Source of the DNA: Haloarcula halobia
GTDB taxonomy: Archaea > Halobacteriota > Halobacteria > Halobacteriales > Haloarculaceae
NCBI RefSeq assembly: GCF_029338255.1
Contig: NZ_CP119787.1
Span: forward strand, 372,001 to 436,000
Reading direction: 5' to 3'
Length of the DNA: 64,000 bases
Of this stretch, positions 52,372 to 64,000 are shown piece by piece; the first letter of the stretch is position 1; the number at the start of each line of letters is the position of its first letter. The position numbers and the translations under genes were made by a program. A model generated the notes under the pieces. It saw nothing but the letters and a program-made list of their open reading frames with translations. It made no database searches and was not told where the DNA came from.

Positions 52372-52962
52372 ATGGCCGACGAGGTCGCCCGGCGACTGGT
52401 CCACGCCTCGGGGTCGGCGGTCCCGCTCGCGCATCTGGTGGCCCCCGGCCTCGTCACCTGGACCGTCGTGAAGGCCTTCATGGCGCTGGCCGTGGCGGTC
52501 GCCGTCGGCCTCGAGTTCCTCCGTCTCTCGGTCGGCCTCGACTGGGCCATCTACGACCGCCTGACCCGCGAGTACGAACAGGACAACCCCGCGGGCTACG
52601 CGCTGTACATGGTCGGGATGGCGGCCGTCGCCTGGGCGGTCGGCCCCGCCGGGATGACCACCGCCATCGCGGTCCCCGCGATGCTGATGCTCACCGTGGG
52701 CGATCCAATCAGCGGCCTGCTGGGCTCCGCGGACGCGAGCAACGTCAAGCAGGCCTGGGTACTGTTTGTGATGTTCGGCGTCTGCACCCTGCTGGCCGCG
52801 CCGTTCGTGCGCCCGGTCGCGGCAGTCATGGGTGGGGCCGCCGCGACCTTCGCCGACGGCGTCAAGCCCAGAATCGCCGGCTACGTCGTCGACGACAACT
52901 TCTCGATTCCGGTGCTGGGTGCGGCCGCGATGTGGGCCGGCGTGGTCGTCGTGCCGGTCTGA
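52372..52962 (+). CDS. Dolichol kinase-like membrane protein
   Basis: This 196-residue protein has about six hydrophobic segments. Motifs include ADEVARRLVHASGSAVPL at the N-terminus, GDPISGLLGS and FADGVKPRIAGYVVDDNFSIPVLGA. This is the pattern of the SEC59/dolichol kinase and CDP-alcohol cytidylyltransferase superfamily. A role in lipid-carrier phosphorylation for protein glycosylation is likely by family. It begins one base after glyS. Confidence 0.78.
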   Translation: MADEVARRLVHASGSAVPLAHLVAPGLVTWTVVKAFMALAVAVAVGLEFLRLSVGLDWAIYDRLTREYEQDNPAGYALYMVGMAAVAWAVGPAGMTTAIAVPAMLMLTVGDPISGLLGSADASNVKQAWVLFVMFGVCTLLAAPFVRPVAAVMGGAAATFADGVKPRIAGYVVDDNFSIPVLGAAAMWAGVVVVPV

Positions 52963-53036
52963 GTCCGCGGCGGGGACGTTCCACTTTCACCGCGCTACCT
53001 GAACCCTTAACCGCCGCCGGGGCCAACGGTTCGCCA

Positions 53037-55493
53037 ATGGCGACCACCGACGCCGAGTCCGGTGGCGAACACCTCGACCGCCCGCTGGTGACGCCGGGGT
53101 TCCTCGAGAACCGGCGATACCAGGTCGAACTGGCCGCGACGGCGAGCCGGGACCACGCGCTCGTCTGTCTCCCGACCGGACTCGGCAAGACCACCGTCTC
53201 GCTGCTGGTGACCGCCGAGCGGCTGTCGACCGTCGGCGGGAAGGCGCTCCTGCTTGCCCCGACGAAGCCGCTGGTCCAGCAACACGCCGAGTTCTACCGC
53301 GAGGCCCTCGAGGTCGACGCCGACGACGTCGTCGTCTTCACCGGCGAGGTCCGCCCGGACGACCGCGCCGAACTGTGGGCGGACGCCCGCGTCGTCATCG
53401 CGACCCCGCAGGTCGTCGAGAACGACCTCGTGGGCAACCGCATCTCGCTCGCCCCGGTCACGCATTGCACCTTCGACGAGTGTCACCGTGCGACCGGCGA
53501 CTACGCCTACAACTACATCGCCGAGCGCTACCACGCCGACGCCGAGAACCCGCTGGTGACCGGGATGAGCGCCTCGCCCGGCGACGACGAGGAAGCGATT
53601 CTGGAGGTGTGTGAGAACCTCGGGCTCTCGGAGGTGGCGGTGATGACCGAAGACGACGCCGACGTCGCCGAGTACACCCACGACACGAGCGTCGAGTGGA
53701 AGCGCGTCGAGCTCCCCGAAGTCGTCCTCGAGATACGCGACGCCATCAACGAGGTGGTCGCGGAGCGACTCGAGAAGCTGCGCGACCTGGGCGTGACCCG
53801 CAAGACCTCGCCGGACATCTCCGAGCGCGAGATACAGGGGATGCAAGCCGAGTTGCGACAGCTGATGGACAACGACCAGAGCGAGGGGTACCAGGGGATG
53901 AGCCTGCTCGCCGAGATCCGCAAGCTCCGGACCGCCGTGACCTACGTCGAGACCCAGAGCGTCGAGTCGCTGATCCGGTACTTCGAGCGTCTGAAGGAGG
54001 CCGCCCGCACCTCCGGCGCGTCGAAGGCCGACCAGCGACTCGTCTCGGAGCCGAAGATTCGCGAGGCGATGCGCAAAGCGAACAGCTACGACGACCTGCA
54101 CCCGAAGTTCCGCCAGACCCGAATGTTGCTCGCCGAGACGCTGGGCATCGAGAACGGCGAGCGCATCATCGTCTTCACCGAGTCCCGGGACACCGCCGAG
54201 ACGCTCGTGGAGTTCCTCTCGGGACACTTCGACGTCGAGAAGTTCGTCGGCCAGAGCGACACCGACGGCAGCGAGGGGATGACCCAGACCCAGCAACAGG
54301 ACACGCTGGACCGCTTCCGGGCCGGCGAGTTCGAGGTGCTGGTCTCGACCTCCGTCGCCGAGGAGGGGCTGGACGTCCCCGAGGTCGACCTCGTGCTCTT
54401 CTATGAACCCGTTCCGACCGCCATCCGGGCCATCCAGCGCAAGGGCCGGACCGGGCGACAGGCCGAAGGTCAGGTCGTCGTCCTCCTGGCCGAGGACACC
54501 CGCGACGAGGCGTACTTCTGGAAGGCCCGGAACGACCAGAAGCGGATGCAAGACGAACTCCAGGAGCTCAAGGGCGTCGCCGGCGAACTCGAAGCAAAAC
54601 TGGACCAGACCGCCCTCGACGAGTACGACGAGGAGAGCGCCGCGGACGACGAATCGGGCGACGAGGGGGCGGGGAGTCCACCCGAAACGGGGGGTGGACG
54701 GGACCCTGATCCGGTGGCCGGGGACGGCCAGGCGGGGCTGGACGCGTTCGCGCCGGCCGACGACGGAGCCGATGACGCCGCCGGGGACGAAGCGGCCGAC
54801 GACCCCGAGGGTCCCGTCGCGAAGCCCGAGAGCGACGCCGGGGCCGTCGAGATCGTGGCCGACCAGCGCGAACTCGACTCGACCATCGCCCGCGACCTCT
54901 CGACGCGCGAGGGCATCGAGACGCGCCTAGAGACCCTGGCCGTCGGGGACTACGTGCTCTCGGACCGCGTGGTCGTCGAGCGAAAGACCGTCGCGGACTT
55001 CCTGGATACGCTGACCGGCGGCGACCGCTCGATGTTCGAGCAGGTGGGCGACGCCGCGCGTCACTACGCCCGCCCGGTCGTCGTCATCGAGGGCGAGGAC
55101 CTCTACGGAGCCCGGAACGTCCACCACCGGGCCATCCAGGGGGCGCTTGCCTCGCTGGCCGTCGACTTCGGCGCGTCGGTCCTCCGGACGAGCGACGAAG
55201 CGGAGACTGCCGACCTGCTCGCGGTCGTCGCCGAGCGCGAACAGGACGTCTCCGAGCGCGAGGTGAGTGTCCACGGCGAGAAGCAATCGAAGACCCTGCC
55301 CGAGCAACAGGAGTACGTCGTCGCCTCCATCGGCGAGGTCGGCCCGGTCACGGCCCGGAGCCTGCTTGAACACTTCGGGAGCGTCGAGGCGGTGATGACC
55401 GCCACGAAGGAGGACCTCATGGAGGTCGCGGGCGTCGGGGAGGTGACCGCCGACCGCGTGCGCGAGGTGGTCGGCGGCACGTACGGCGAGTGA
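53037..55493 (+). CDS. hef: Hef: FANCM-like helicase fused to XPF-type nuclease
   Basis: This 818-residue protein has SF2 helicase motifs LPTGLGKTT, FDECH, TGMSASPG, IVFTESRDTAETLVEFL and QRKGRTGRQ. An acidic linker of about 100 residues follows, then an ERCC4 nuclease with GDYVLSDRVVVERKTVADF (G-D...E-R-K-x3-D), and tandem HhH motifs (GEVGPVTARSLLEHFG, EVAGVGEVTADRV). It unwinds and cuts stalled replication forks. The start is the ATG preceding the acidic leader. Convergent with the p27-like gene. Confidence 0.95.
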   Translation: MATTDAESGGEHLDRPLVTPGFLENRRYQVELAATASRDHALVCLPTGLGKTTVSLLVTAERLSTVGGKALLLAPTKPLVQQHAEFYREALEVDADDVVVFTGEVRPDDRAELWADARVVIATPQVVENDLVGNRISLAPVTHCTFDECHRATGDYAYNYIAERYHADAENPLVTGMSASPGDDEEAILEVCENLGLSEVAVMTEDDADVAEYTHDTSVEWKRVELPEVVLEIRDAINEVVAERLEKLRDLGVTRKTSPDISEREIQGMQAELRQLMDNDQSEGYQGMSLLAEIRKLRTAVTYVETQSVESLIRYFERLKEAARTSGASKADQRLVSEPKIREAMRKANSYDDLHPKFRQTRMLLAETLGIENGERIIVFTESRDTAETLVEFLSGHFDVEKFVGQSDTDGSEGMTQTQQQDTLDRFRAGEFEVLVSTSVAEEGLDVPEVDLVLFYEPVPTAIRAIQRKGRTGRQAEGQVVVLLAEDTRDEAYFWKARNDQKRMQDELQELKGVAGELEAKLDQTALDEYDEESAADDESGDEGAGSPPETGGGRDPDPVAGDGQAGLDAFAPADDGADDAAGDEAADDPEGPVAKPESDAGAVEIVADQRELDSTIARDLSTREGIETRLETLAVGDYVLSDRVVVERKTVADFLDTLTGGDRSMFEQVGDAARHYARPVVVIEGEDLYGARNVHHRAIQGALASLAVDFGASVLRTSDEAETADLLAVVAEREQDVSEREVSVHGEKQSKTLPEQQEYVVASIGEVGPVTARSLLEHFGSVEAVMTATKEDLMEVAGVGEVTADRVREVVGGTYGE

Positions 55494-59445: not shown

Positions 59446-59473
59446 CCCCCCACCCCTTCGTTTCGACTGGAAC
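59446..59473 (-). repeat. ORB 1, left of the unwinding region
   Basis: On the reverse strand this reads gttccagtcgaaacgaaggg followed by gtgggggg. It matches ORB 2 and ORB 3 in the core tcca-[ct]-[nc]-cgaaa-[ct]-gaagggg with a G-run after it, and points away from the AT-rich segment. An Orc1/Cdc6 binding site. Confidence 0.88.
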
Positions 59474-59580
59474 GGGAACCACCCCCGTGGTCGGGACCGG
59501 CGATTCGACCGGAAACGGACCGGATCGAACGGACGGGACGGGGCAGTGCGCAGTGGAAACGGTGGAGGCCGCCACGGAGA

Positions 59581-59695: not shown

Positions 59696-59731
59696 CCGTA
59701 ACCGCTCCCCCCCACCCCGTCCCGATTCACC

Positions 59732-59760
59732 GTTCCACCCGAAATGAAGGGGTGGGGGGT
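59732..59760 (+). repeat. ORB 2, right of the unwinding region
   Basis: gttccacccgaaatgaaggg is followed by gtggggggt. It is oriented opposite to ORB 1, so the pair frames the AT-rich element. One base (t for c) differs from ORB 3 within the cgaaacgaagggg core. Confidence 0.88.
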
Positions 59761-60126: not shown

Positions 60127-60243
60127 GTGGTTCATCTGGACGGACCGACGAGTGGCGAAGTCGATATCCACGGCGAATCCGGTCGTATCGAGACGTCTCA
60201 CTCGGTGCGTCCGACGGTTTCCACCCGAAACGAAGGGGTTTGA
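60127..60243 (+). CDS. Candidate leaderless small ORF ahead of orc1 (38 residues)
   Basis: A GTG at 60127 opens a frame reading VVHLDGPTSGEVDIHGES and ending S-T-R-N-E-G-V with TGA at 60241. A strong TATA (atatttaatat, 60096-60106) is centred 27 bases upstream, so transcription probably starts at or near the GTG. The frame ends nine bases before the orc1 ATG and its last codons are encoded by ORB 3. It may be an upstream peptide affecting orc1 translation, or only leader RNA. Confidence 0.4.
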   Translation: MVHLDGPTSGEVDIHGESGRIETSHSVRPTVSTRNEGV

Positions 60244-60252: not shown

Positions 60253-61818
60253 ATGACCGACGAATCCAACGACCACGACACCGACGACGGCCCGACGTCC
60301 GGCGAGAGTGGCCCGCTCGACGACTCGTCGAACCTCCTCGACCGTTCTGGCGCCGACCGGTCTGGCACGCCGGACCTCGACGACATCGTGCTCGACAATC
60401 TCGACACTGGCGACGAGGACGCCTCGGACGAGGCCTCCCGCGGCCTGTTCGACGACCTCCTCGAGGGTGAACCAATCTTCGAGAACAAGGAGGTGCTCAG
60501 GCCGTCGTACACCCCGCACAAACTGCCCCACCGCGAGGAGCAGATCAACAACATGGCGACCATCCTCGTGACGGCCCTGCGGGGCGACACCCCGTCGAAC
60601 ATCCTCATCTACGGGAAGACCGGGACCGGCAAGACCGCCAGTGCGAAGTTCGTCAGCGAGGAACTCGAGACCACCTCCCAGAAGTACGAGGTCCCCTGCG
60701 AGGTCGAGTACATCAACTGCGAGGTGACCGACACCCAGTACCGGGTGCTCGCCCAGCTAGCGAACAAGTTCATCAACAAGAACCTCGGGGTCATCGAGGA
60801 CCGGCTCGCGGACCTCTCCGACCTGCGCTCGCGCGTGCGAGACGACTCCTCGGTGCTGGCCGAGACCTCGTTTGCGTCACTCGACGCACTCGAGGCGGAG
60901 ATCGACGCCCTCGAAGCGGACCGCGACGAGTTCGAGGAGGTGCCAATGACCGGGTGGCCCACCGACCGCGTCTACTCTTCCTTTTTCGACGCCGTCGACT
61001 ACCACGAGCGCGTTGTCGTCATCATGCTCGACGAGATCGACAAGCTCGTCGAGAAGTCCGGCGACGACACGCTCTACAACCTCTCGCGAATGAACTCCGA
61101 GCTGGAGAACTCGCGGGTCTCCATCATGGGCATCTCGAACGACCTGAAGTTCACCGACTTCTTGGACCCCCGCGTCAAGTCCAGCCTCGGCGAGGAGGAG
61201 ATCGTCTTCCCGCCCTACGACGCCAACCAGCTGCGCGACATCCTCCAGGCCCGGGCCGACGTCGCGTTCAAGGGCGACGCACTCTCGGACGACGTCATTC
61301 CCCTGTGTGCGGCCTTCGCGGCCCAGGAACACGGCGACGCCCGCCGGGCGCTGGACCTCCTGCGGACGGCGGGGGAACTCGCCGAGCGCGACCAGACCGA
61401 CCACGTCGAGGAGGATCACGTCCGACAGGCCCAGGAGAAGATCGAACTCGACCGCGTGGTGGAGGTCGTCCGCACGCTCCCCACCCAGTCGAAGATCGTC
61501 CTCTTTGCCATCATCCTCCTGGAGAAAAACGGCGTGCGCAACATCAACACCGGCGAGGTGTTCAACATCTACAAGAACCTCTGTGAGGAGATCGACGCCG
61601 ACGTGCTGACTCAGCGCCGCGTCACGGACCTCATCTCTGAACTGGACATGCTCGGCATCGTCAACGCCGTCGTCGTCTCGAAGGGGCGCTACGGCCGGAC
61701 CAAGGAGATCTCGCTGTCGGTCCCGACAGACGAGACGGAGGCCGTGTTGCTCTCTGACTCCCGGCTGGGCGACATCGAGGACGTCCAGCCGTTCGTCCAG
61801 GCACGCTTCGACAACTGA
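60253..61818 (+). CDS. orc1: Orc1/Cdc6 replication initiator
   Basis: This 521-residue protein starts MTDESNDHDTDDGPTSGESG. An acidic N-terminal extension of about 75 residues leads to an AAA+ domain with Walker A GKTGTGKT (121-128), Walker B VVIMLDEIDKL and sensor-type ISNDLKF. A C-terminal winged helix follows (VRNINTGEVFNIYKNLCEEID, QRRVTDLISELDMLG). It binds ORBs and loads the MCM helicase. Linked to its own origin, as for the essential haloarchaeal initiator (orc1/cdc6A). Confidence 0.95.
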   Translation: MTDESNDHDTDDGPTSGESGPLDDSSNLLDRSGADRSGTPDLDDIVLDNLDTGDEDASDEASRGLFDDLLEGEPIFENKEVLRPSYTPHKLPHREEQINNMATILVTALRGDTPSNILIYGKTGTGKTASAKFVSEELETTSQKYEVPCEVEYINCEVTDTQYRVLAQLANKFINKNLGVIEDRLADLSDLRSRVRDDSSVLAETSFASLDALEAEIDALEADRDEFEEVPMTGWPTDRVYSSFFDAVDYHERVVVIMLDEIDKLVEKSGDDTLYNLSRMNSELENSRVSIMGISNDLKFTDFLDPRVKSSLGEEEIVFPPYDANQLRDILQARADVAFKGDALSDDVIPLCAAFAAQEHGDARRALDLLRTAGELAERDQTDHVEEDHVRQAQEKIELDRVVEVVRTLPTQSKIVLFAIILLEKNGVRNINTGEVFNIYKNLCEEIDADVLTQRRVTDLISELDMLGIVNAVVVSKGRYGRTKEISLSVPTDETEAVLLSDSRLGDIEDVQPFVQARFDN

Positions 61819-61829
61819 CGCCGTTTCTC

Positions 61830-61909
61830 ATACTGCCGGCTGTACGTTCGTACCAATTCTCGGCACCCCGGGGTGCCGAGTATTTTCTACACGTTACAGC
61901 CGGCAGTAT
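61830..61909. terminator. Nested palindrome between convergent orc1 and signal-peptidase genes
   Basis: Outer arms atactgccggctgta (61830-61844) and tacagccggcagtat (61895-61909) are exact complements. Inside, 61859-61880 is a perfect 22-base palindrome (ctcggcacccc and its complement) followed by tattttc. It starts 12 bp after the orc1 stop, and its last base is the stop codon edge of the leftward gene. It can fold on both strands and probably ends transcription from both sides. Confidence 0.75.
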
Positions 61910-62628
61910 CAGGCTCCCGCTTCGAACCCCGTCGCCGCGCCGGGGCCGGCCGTCGTCGCATTCATTGACCCGGCGTTCGGCGGGCGGGCGGCCGCCTGAT
62001 TCCAGCGGAGGCGGATCTGGCCAAGCACCGGCACCCGCAGTTCCGCGGTGCCCACGACCCACTCGGGTTTCACCGGGGCGCTGATGACGGCCGACCCGAC
62101 CTGGTCGTAGCGGGCGTTGTTGTCACCTTTCGTGATGAACCCGGCGTGGGGGGCCGGACAGTTCGATAGTTCCGCACAGCTCTTTGCGTCCCCGATGTCG
62201 CTGGGGTCGGCGCGGTCGTACCAGTTCTCGCCCCGGTCGACCCACAGCATCGCGCGGTGGATGATGGGCGTCGCCCGCCGGTTCCCGTCGGGGGCGTAGA
62301 CGATGACGTCGCCGGTCCCCTGGAACCGGACGTAGGTGCTGGTGTCGGCCGCCGTCGTCACGCCGTGGCGTGCGTCCGGCCCGGGGAAGCGCTCTTCGTC
62401 CATGACGAACACCAGGTCGCCCGTGTCGATGTGGGGTTCCATGCTCGGGCTCTCGATGGCCACCAGCGGGGGCCAGACGCCGCTGACCGAGAACAGTAAC
62501 AGCCCAACCAGGAGGACGGCGCTGGCGCTGCTGATGACGTCTGTCACGTACACCATCGCGCCGCGGCGGTCGGCCTCGTCCGTCGACGCCTCCTCACCGA
62601 CGGCCGAGCGGCGCTCGTCCCCGGACAT
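61909..62628 (-). CDS. Type I signal peptidase (S26, Sec11-like), copy A
   Basis: This 239-residue protein has one N-terminal membrane helix (SASAVLLVGLLLFSVSGVWPPLVA). The catalytic Ser is in IESPSMEPHIDTGD, the second residue is His in PIIHRAMLW (archaeal/ER type rather than bacterial Lys), and the Asp box is FITKGDNNARYDQ. It removes signal peptides outside the membrane. A Cys pair (CAELSNC) may form a disulphide. A close paralogue lies directly upstream. Confidence 0.9.
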   Translation of the reverse strand: MSGDERRSAVGEEASTDEADRRGAMVYVTDVISSASAVLLVGLLLFSVSGVWPPLVAIESPSMEPHIDTGDLVFVMDEERFPGPDARHGVTTAADTSTYVRFQGTGDVIVYAPDGNRRATPIIHRAMLWVDRGENWYDRADPSDIGDAKSCAELSNCPAPHAGFITKGDNNARYDQVGSAVISAPVKPEWVVGTAELRVPVLGQIRLRWNQAAARPPNAGSMNATTAGPGAATGFEAGA

Positions 62629-62657: not shown

Positions 62658-63371
62658 TCAACTTTCCGCTGTCCGGACCGCCGTTGTGCCGTTGGCGGGT
62701 CTGATCGGCGTCGGTACGGTCTCGGGGTCGCTCGTTTGCGTCCCGGCCCCGGCCACTGCCTGCGAGCGCAGGCGGACCCAGCCCAGGTCGGGGAGGCGGA
62801 CCTCGCCGGTCCCGATGACCCACGACGGGCGGACAACGGTGCTCGTGGTGCCGGCCTGATCGTACTCGGCGTTGAAGTCCCCCTTCGTGACGAACCCGGC
62901 GTGGGGGGCCGGACAGTTCCGCAGCTCCGCGCAGTCGGTCGCCGTCCCGACGGCGTCGGGGTCGGCGCGGTCGTACCAGTTCTCGCCCCGGTCGACCCAC
63001 AGCATCGCACGGTGGATGATGGGCGTCGCCGACGCGTCGCCGTCGGGCATGAACACGATGACGTCGCCCGGGCGACCGAACGCGACGTACCCGTCCTGTT
63101 CGCCGGCCGCCGCCGTCACGACGCCGTGGCGTGCGTCCGGCCCGGGGAAGCGCTCCTCGTCCATGACGAACACCATGTCGCCCGTCTCGATGTTCGGGGT
63201 CATGCTGGCGCTCTCGATGGCCACCAGCGGGGGCCAGACGCCGCTGACCGCAAAGAGGAACAGGCCGACCAGGCAGACGGCGACGACGGCGCTCGCGAGC
63301 TCGGTGGCGAGGTGGCCGGCCGCTCCCCCCGACCGGTCGTCTCGCCCGGCAGGTCCGCCGTCGCCGTCCAT
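62658..63371 (-). CDS. Type I signal peptidase (S26, Sec11-like), copy B
   Basis: From MDGDGGPAGRDDRSGG the protein has 237 residues. It carries the same motifs as copy A: IESASMTPNIETGD (Ser), PIIHRAMLW (His), FVTKGDFNAEYDQ (Asp) and the CAELRNC pair. DNA identity with copy A is long (for example around gacgccgtggcgtgcgtccg), showing a tandem duplication. The upstream in-frame extension is not protein-like. Divergent from the DP1 gene, 78 bp between starts. Confidence 0.9.
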   Translation of the reverse strand: MDGDGGPAGRDDRSGGAAGHLATELASAVVAVCLVGLFLFAVSGVWPPLVAIESASMTPNIETGDMVFVMDEERFPGPDARHGVVTAAAGEQDGYVAFGRPGDVIVFMPDGDASATPIIHRAMLWVDRGENWYDRADPDAVGTATDCAELRNCPAPHAGFVTKGDFNAEYDQAGTTSTVVRPSWVIGTGEVRLPDLGWVRLRSQAVAGAGTQTSDPETVPTPIRPANGTTAVRTAES

Positions 63372-63449: not shown

Positions 63450-64000
63450 GTGCCCCTGGAGACGCCGGCACGAATCGTCAGGGAACTCGCCAGCCGCGGC
63501 TACAACGCCGAGCGGGAAGCGGTGACGCGCCTCGCGGACGCGCCGGACCCCGCGGCCGCGCTCGACCGTGCACTGGAAACGATGCCCGCGGACGCGCTGA
63601 AACTGACGACCGATCACGTCGACGCCGTCCTCGAGAGCCACGCAGAACGCCGCGAATCCCACCGTGGCCAGTCGGAACCCGGCGGAACTGGGGCCGACTC
63701 CGAAACCGAACGATACCCCCCTGTTTCGACTGGAACGGCGGCGCCGAACCCGCCCGACGACGGTGGGGCCGTTCCACACGAAACAGGGGGGTCTCGGGAC
63801 GTCGACCTCTCGCTTCGTGCCGTCGAGGTCGCCAACGACATGACCGGCGACTCGACGGGGACCGGCGAGTACGCCGATTTCGTCGCCGTCTTCCGGGACC
63901 GCTACGAGAAGCTCGCGAGCAAGCTCCGCGGGCGGGTCAACCACCGGCCGACAGATGCCATCGAGGCGATGGGCGGGGGCAGCGAGGCGGCGCTTATCGG
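63450..64000 (+). CDS. polB: DNA polymerase D small subunit DP1 (N-terminal part, runs off window)
   Basis: From GTG at 63450, 183 codons are visible. The N-terminal helical domain (PARIVRELASRGYNAEREAV) is followed by a low-complexity linker and then VEVANDMTGDSTGTGEYADFVAVFRDRYEKLASKLRGR, matching haloarchaeal DP1 before the OB-fold. The phosphoesterase (exonuclease) domain would lie beyond the window. The linker is encoded by an inverted pair of ORB-like sequences (63717-63796). DP1 partners the polC product. Confidence 0.88.
   Translation, partial: MPLETPARIVRELASRGYNAEREAVTRLADAPDPAAALDRALETMPADALKLTTDHVDAVLESHAERRESHRGQSEPGGTGADSETERYPPVSTGTAAPNPPDDGGAVPHETGGSRDVDLSLRAVEVANDMTGDSTGTGEYADFVAVFRDRYEKLASKLRGRVNHRPTDAIEAMGGGSEAALI
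63717..63736 (-). repeat. ORB-like element inside the DP1 gene, left copy
   Basis: Reverse strand gttccagtcgaaacaggggg shares 14 consecutive bases (gttccagtcgaaac) with ORB 1, then a G-run. It encodes part of PPVSTGT in DP1. Confidence 0.75.
63771..63796 (+). repeat. ORB-like element inside the DP1 gene, right copy
   Basis: gttccacacgaaacaggggg followed by gtctcg is close to ORB 2 and to the left copy. It points away from the left copy, like the pair around the unwinding region, but the 34-bp spacer is GC-rich. It encodes VPHETGGS in DP1. Confidence 0.75.

Follow-up and report, generated by a model that had tools for sequence, protein, structure and literature searches.

A conserved inverted pair of ORB boxes with fixed spacing inside the PolD small subunit gene of Halobacteria: a probable Orc1-binding element outside the origin

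Origin ORBs take up one Orc monomer each, with a fixed polarity (PMC12141716 and PMC7776575). In Sulfolobus, an inverted pair of ORBs targets MCM to the intervening DNA (PMC12141716). In Haloarcula hispanica, the extended G-string of the boxes is essential for oriC1 and its mutation abolishes function, while an ORB-rich region downstream of cdc6E lowers the activity of oriC2, probably by titration; ORBs downstream of other ori-cdc6 regions are remarked on in general terms in the same paper, the pair described here not being among them (PMC3936714). Orc1-2 of Sulfolobus, a protein of the Orc1 family, is a global regulator of gene expression (PMC9738581). A survey of haloarchaeal origins, in which the polymerase gene goes unmentioned, considered only the intergenic regions beside orc/cdc6 genes (PMC3528665), and the available part of a Haloferax review places dp1 (HVO_0003) near oriC1 and orc1 and reports no boxes inside dp1 (PMC7776575). 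A search of freely accessible papers joining PolD, DP1, ORB and Orc1 returned none on the subject by title and abstract. No earlier report of the dp1 pair was found in the searched papers, which does not prove its absence from the literature.

The DNA analysed (the window, 64,000 nucleotides) comprises bases 372001-436000 of the larger of the two contigs of a 3.48-Mb haloarchaeal genome. Its relevant features are as follows.

59446-59475, minus strand: left ORB of oriC1 (comparison); extended G-string, exact core, inverted repeat
59730-59759, plus strand: right ORB of oriC1 (comparison); extended G-string, one core mismatch, inverted repeat
60219-60239, plus strand: exact ORB shortly before the start codon of orc1 (comparison)
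60253-61818, plus strand: orc1 (orc1/cdc6; NF001625, 653 bits), presumed gene for the box-reading protein
63450-64000, plus strand: 5' portion of dp1, which encodes the PolD small subunit (DP1); GTG start at 63450, 522 amino acids in total, running past the end of the window
63715-63736, minus strand: left ORB box, reading GTTCCAGTCGAAACAGGGGGGT on this strand; 19-mer core at 63716-63734, G-run pointing outward (upstream)
63735-63772, no strand: spacer between the cores, 38 bp; free in sequence, fixed in length, not AT-rich
63771-63792, plus strand: right ORB box, GTTCCACACGAAACAGGGGGGT; core 19-mer at 63773-63791, G-run pointing outward (downstream)

The host gene was identified as dp1 by its score of 982.6 bits with NCBIfam NF003116 (cut-off 425). 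The two boxes encode approximately residues 89-115; since solved DP1 structures align from residue 142 or later, the boxes lie in the linker, as had been proposed, and this linker is disordered. The closest solved chains for the Orc1 protein are 2qby_A and 2v1u_A, both from archaeal Orc1/Cdc6 proteins to which it is closely related; these are structures on ORB DNA. Between orc1 and dp1 there are two tandem signal-peptidase-like genes on the minus strand (61909-62628 and 62658-63371), which share stretches with 80-86% DNA identity and are a local duplication.

Both sequences named in the original prediction are present without mismatch: GTTCCAGTCGAAACAGGGGG on the minus strand at 63717-63736 and GTTCCACACGAAACAGGGGG on the plus strand at 63771-63790. 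A tighter form of the box, TCCANNNGAAACNNNGGGG, occurs in inverted orientation at 63716-63734 (minus) and 63773-63791 (plus). The boxes are indeed placed back to back, being the arms of the top-scoring inverted repeat in the 58-64 kb region (63711-63746 and 63761-63796; arms of 36 nt, 83% complementary). In shuffled sequence, 0.06 box matches with up to three mismatches are expected. In the whole 3.48-Mb genome TCCANNNGAAACNNNGGGG has four exact matches, two of which are in DP1 and two at oriC1/orc1 (the oriC1 left box and the box upstream of orc1); with one mismatch there are 15 matches, the reversed pattern used as a control giving 3. A close relative (G459) has five exact boxes, each of them at oriC1/orc1 or in dp1. 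A chance match is rejected by the shuffles, by these genome-wide counts and by the search of 391 genomes described below. As a separate observation, ORB-like sites with one mismatch are concentrated on that side of the chromosome which holds oriC1 (contig C1, 232-617 kb), 9 of 11 lying within about 200 kb of oriC1; further initiator sites may thus exist around the origin.

The likeness to the origin boxes holds for one part of the box and fails for another. The ORB core TCCANNNGAAAC and a GGGG at the right distance from it are exact in both boxes and near-invariant in 81 DP1 genes, whereas the extended halophile G-string that should follow GGGGT is missing: origin boxes mostly have GGGGTGGGGG and dp1 boxes mostly have GGGGTCT. 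The sequence TCCANNNGAAACNNNGGGGT is common to 201 origin ORBs from the loci studied for DP1; these had been selected via the core, and only the positions outside it are independent evidence. The distance of 3.5 kb, proposed for the origin core, is that to the ORB beside orc1, and the nearest box flanking oriC1 is 4.0 kb away.

The evidence that the boxes are kept as DNA comes from 81 DP1 genes, i.e., the gene in the window and 80 further loci fetched via peptide patterns outside the linker. ORB-like boxes are found at the same place of DP1 in most of the fetched loci, and when the proteins are aligned the peptides of the two boxes keep a constant distance from each other and stand out as an island, while the rest of the linker is full of gaps. 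There are six key wobble positions, in codons 92, 94, 95, 108, 109 and 111. At these, the ORB base is present in 483 of 486 cells, compared with about 69 predicted by codon usage. Codon 92 is GTT, GCT, ACT, ATT, AAT or CCT and so encodes six amino acids, and codon 108 is TCT, GCT, GTT, ACT or others, again for six amino acids; in both, the third base is T in all 81 genes, T being the third base of 7.6% of codons gene-wide. Codon 111 is GAA in all 81. Among 513 codons, the five highest third-base z-scores (25-29) are all inside the boxes, the next being that of the start codon (15); relatedness inflates these scores, but it does so to the same degree for the rest of the gene's codons, and these provide the null. 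Thus, conservation of the DNA beyond that of the protein linker, the test put forward with the original prediction, was borne out in Halobacteria, and relatives that keep the linker without the boxes, which would have spoken against it, do not occur in the set of 81. There is strong support for the central idea that initiator boxes are being preserved as DNA in the linker of DP1.

The geometry of the pair is also constrained. The spacing from core to core is 38 bp in 78 of the 81 genes (35, 53 and 56 bp in the other three) and the pair spans 76 bp overall, while the length before the left box takes 29 values and that after the right box 20. The mean GC content of the spacer is 0.65, equal to that of the gene. 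Such constancy is not shared by ORB pairs in general: the inverted pair at oriC1, with boxes 181-337 bp apart, has 36 different spacings in 62 loci.

The exact pair was found in 170 of 391 Halobacteria genomes by a search that admitted 31 spacings, with no control matches. In the fetched loci, the pairs at 62 bp (23 loci) and those at 59 bp, i.e., one codon shorter (4 loci), are all in DP1; some loci (such as L093 and L128) represent the same place twice, making the number of separate genomes slightly lower. Pairs of any other spacing are all outside DP1, and those at 51-53 and 69-76 bp are therefore not the same element. Among about 200 genomes of the same phylum that are not Halobacteria (of 246 searched), no pair of the dp1 spacing was found; the few pairs that did turn up were scattered, had different spacings and were about as frequent as in the reversed control. 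Of 30 genomes chosen for absence of the exact pair, 22 have a degraded pair at an offset of 54, 57 or 69 bp; these scores are weak and in part due to chance, and serve as supporting evidence only. The right box is more durable than the left, and several Halorubrum-like genomes have an exact right box only. In Haloferax, TGCA replaces TCCA in the left box of all seven genes in the set and GAAGC replaces GAAAC in the right box of most of them; the origin boxes of this genus, unlike its dp1 boxes, are regular. Because of this weakening in Haloferax and the single box of the Halorubrum-like genomes, the element is not essential everywhere.

ORB-like sites were also observed elsewhere. In 40 of 70 loci, the chosen orc1 ATG is preceded by an exact ORB at a distance of 26-49 nt (mostly 27-35), the expected position of the orc1 core promoter, which suggests autoregulation by Orc1. 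Exact ORBs or inverted ORB-like pairs are found inside the orc1 coding sequence, mainly in Natrialbaceae (L157:4126-4176 and L159:4118-4186; orc1 of L040, L047, L048, L054, L058, L060, L069, L078, L084 and L091). Halobacterium-like genomes have a 51-bp inverted ORB-like pair directly after the orc1 stop codon (L149:4595-4645, L152:2653-2703, L153:4304-4354), and three genomes from one genus of another family have a 51-bp inverted pair between genes that by eye are Cgi121-like and purO-like (L154:4573-4623, L155:4405-4455, L156:4300-4350). In the window itself, a Hef-like helicase/nuclease gene (52932-55493) has an ORB-like box with one core mismatch in its acidic linker (54675-54694); about 7 of 25 relatives also have ORB-like boxes in this gene, and those of L195 and L210 are exact.

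The dp1 gene is usually 2-5 kb downstream of orc1 and oriC1, but the pair does not depend on this. It is kept in dp1 of Halorarius litoreus, 131 kb from oriC1, and of Natrarchaeobius chitinivorans, 37 kb from oriC1, and at least one exact box is present in dp1 of Haladaptatus and Halomicrococcus, where the distance is 13-25 kb. The suggestion that the boxes form a loop to the nearby origin or act together with it is weakened, because they persist where DP1 is 13-131 kb from oriC1. Similarly, the pair is not a part of oriC1: it was retained after dp1 had moved away, and although its ORBs are inverted, as in an origin, they flank the 38-bp spacer of GC 0.65 rather than an AT-rich unwinding region.

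Constraint on the DNA, fixed geometry and independence from origin proximity have thus been demonstrated for the dp1 boxes. Orc1 binding is deduced from the sequence identity of the boxes with the ORBs of oriC1, and the probability that they are a conserved Orc1-binding element is estimated at about 0.9. The pair is thus very likely to be an Orc1-binding element of the whole class, distinct from the origin and fixed in its geometry. Two Orc1 molecules would occupy the inverted boxes as a defined complex, with 38 bp between the cores and 76 bp overall, in the outward G-run polarity seen at oriC1 but with no duplex-unwinding region between the boxes.

As to the job of the pair, Orc1-dependent control of dp1 expression is predicted as the likeliest, at somewhat short of an even chance. 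With Orc1 bound at approximately 270-340 nt within the transcribed region, elongation by RNA polymerase would be hindered or metered, and the supply of the PolD small subunit would then track the amount or nucleotide state of free Orc1. A role specific to dp1 is argued for because the element follows dp1 rather than the origin and its geometry is fixed, neither of which is needed for titration; Orc1-2 of Sulfolobus provides a precedent. Three points count against control of expression. An intragenic position is unusual for an archaeal regulator, the boxes are weakened in Haloferax and reduced to the right one in Halorubrum-like genomes, and the 2-5 kb linkage of dp1 to oriC1 in most genomes is also expected of titration or of an element linked to the origin. 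A wider circuit, in which Orc1 sets PolD supply via the dp1 pair and the box at its own promoter is the other branch, is a more tentative proposal still.

Titration of the initiator is the main rival and a serious one, though less likely than control of dp1: dp1 mostly adjoins oriC1, and H. hispanica is known to possess a titration region rich in ORBs. The pair would be a high-affinity sink for Orc1, duplicated soon after oriC1 fires, which reduces free Orc1 and postpones re-initiation, in the manner of datA for DnaA and of the oriC2D ORB cluster for Cdc6E. The usual distance of 2-5 kb and the small number of other exact Orc1 sites in the genome fit a sink of this kind. However, a sink could do without a constant spacing and without a constant host gene; the known example, with its 11 boxes, is an intergenic cluster near an origin, whereas here there are two boxes in the same codons throughout the class, within a gene, and they persist even with dp1 131 kb from oriC1.

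It is improbable that the pair is a platform for helicase loading, or a dormant mini-origin, where MCM would be loaded inside dp1 by Orc1 occupying both boxes. The outward polarity of the G-runs is that of oriC1, and the Sulfolobus pair that directs MCM to the DNA between its boxes would be a model; but the 38-bp spacer has the GC content of the gene and holds no unwinding region, the boxes of oriC1 are 181-337 bp apart, and the dp1 boxes are without the extended G-string; in H. hispanica, mutating that string abolishes the function of oriC1 (PMC3936714).

More doubtful still is an RNA hairpin, in which the arms pair in the dp1 mRNA and tune translation or elongation, the likeness to ORBs being secondary. 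The segment of the window folds at -58.4 kcal/mol (z -6.95) and folding is also good in three of four relatives, but any inverted pair of the strict box would fold strongly, and a Haloferax example (L053) is without a stable stem (z -1.45). Compensatory changes between the boxes, the mark of a structured mRNA, were not found: the second base of TCCA is changed in 11 left and 6 right boxes and position 10 in 15 and 8, in neither case ever together; the variable positions 12-14 and the flanks pair no more than in shuffles, with a slight excess at positions 5-6 only. Moreover, a stem needs neither a fixed loop of 38 nt nor identity with the intergenic boxes of oriC1. With strong fold energies but no covariation to speak of, the stem is largely refuted. 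Scarcely credible is selection of the linker peptide (PSVSTGT ... PVETKGS) as a DP1 binding motif that the DNA merely follows, since the peptide, though broadly alike in all 81 genes, varies in its amino acids (V/A/T/I/N/P; S/A/V/T; V/P/A/H) while the wobble bases stay, which is the reverse of selection on protein, and the wobble analysis rejects the peptide as sole cause of the conservation.

To our knowledge, little is known of how archaea control initiation and couple it to the supply of polymerase. Boxes for the initiator within a replicative polymerase gene, class-wide and at fixed spacing, would tie the supply of the replisome to initiation through a dedicated link; if Orc1-dependent control of dp1 is correct, Halobacteria would share a direct regulatory wire, with Orc1 both initiator and regulator of a replisome gene. 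The element is small and recodable, synonymous changes being possible at key bases, and is found in genera with tractable genetics, such as Haloarcula. It is also a warning that conserved initiator sites escape origin surveys confined to intergenic regions beside orc genes, PMC3528665 being an example.

Among known systems, the ORBs of haloarchaeal oriC1 resemble the dp1 pair in their core TCCANNNGAAACNNNGGGGT, their inversion, their outward G-runs and their presumed reader, Orc1. They differ in being intergenic, 181-337 bp apart at variable spacing, with an AT-rich region between them and an extended G-string, whereas the dp1 pair is intragenic, fixed at 38 bp, of the same GC content as its gene and without the extended G-string. 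The oriC2D region of Haloarcula hispanica likewise has non-origin ORBs near an origin, for which control of initiation mediated by the initiator was proposed, but it consists of eleven intergenic boxes for Cdc6E, has no fixed pair and is not class-wide (PMC3936714). The DnaA boxes of bacterial datA and of the dnaA promoter are also initiator boxes outside the origin, serving titration or gene control, although the proteins and boxes are unrelated and are not inside a polymerase gene. In the Orc1-2 regulon of Sulfolobus, a protein of the Orc1 family likewise regulates gene expression; Orc1-2, however, is a paralogue that works in the response to DNA damage and not as an initiator (PMC9738581), whereas the boxes in dp1 are those of the initiator Orc1 and are located inside a coding region.
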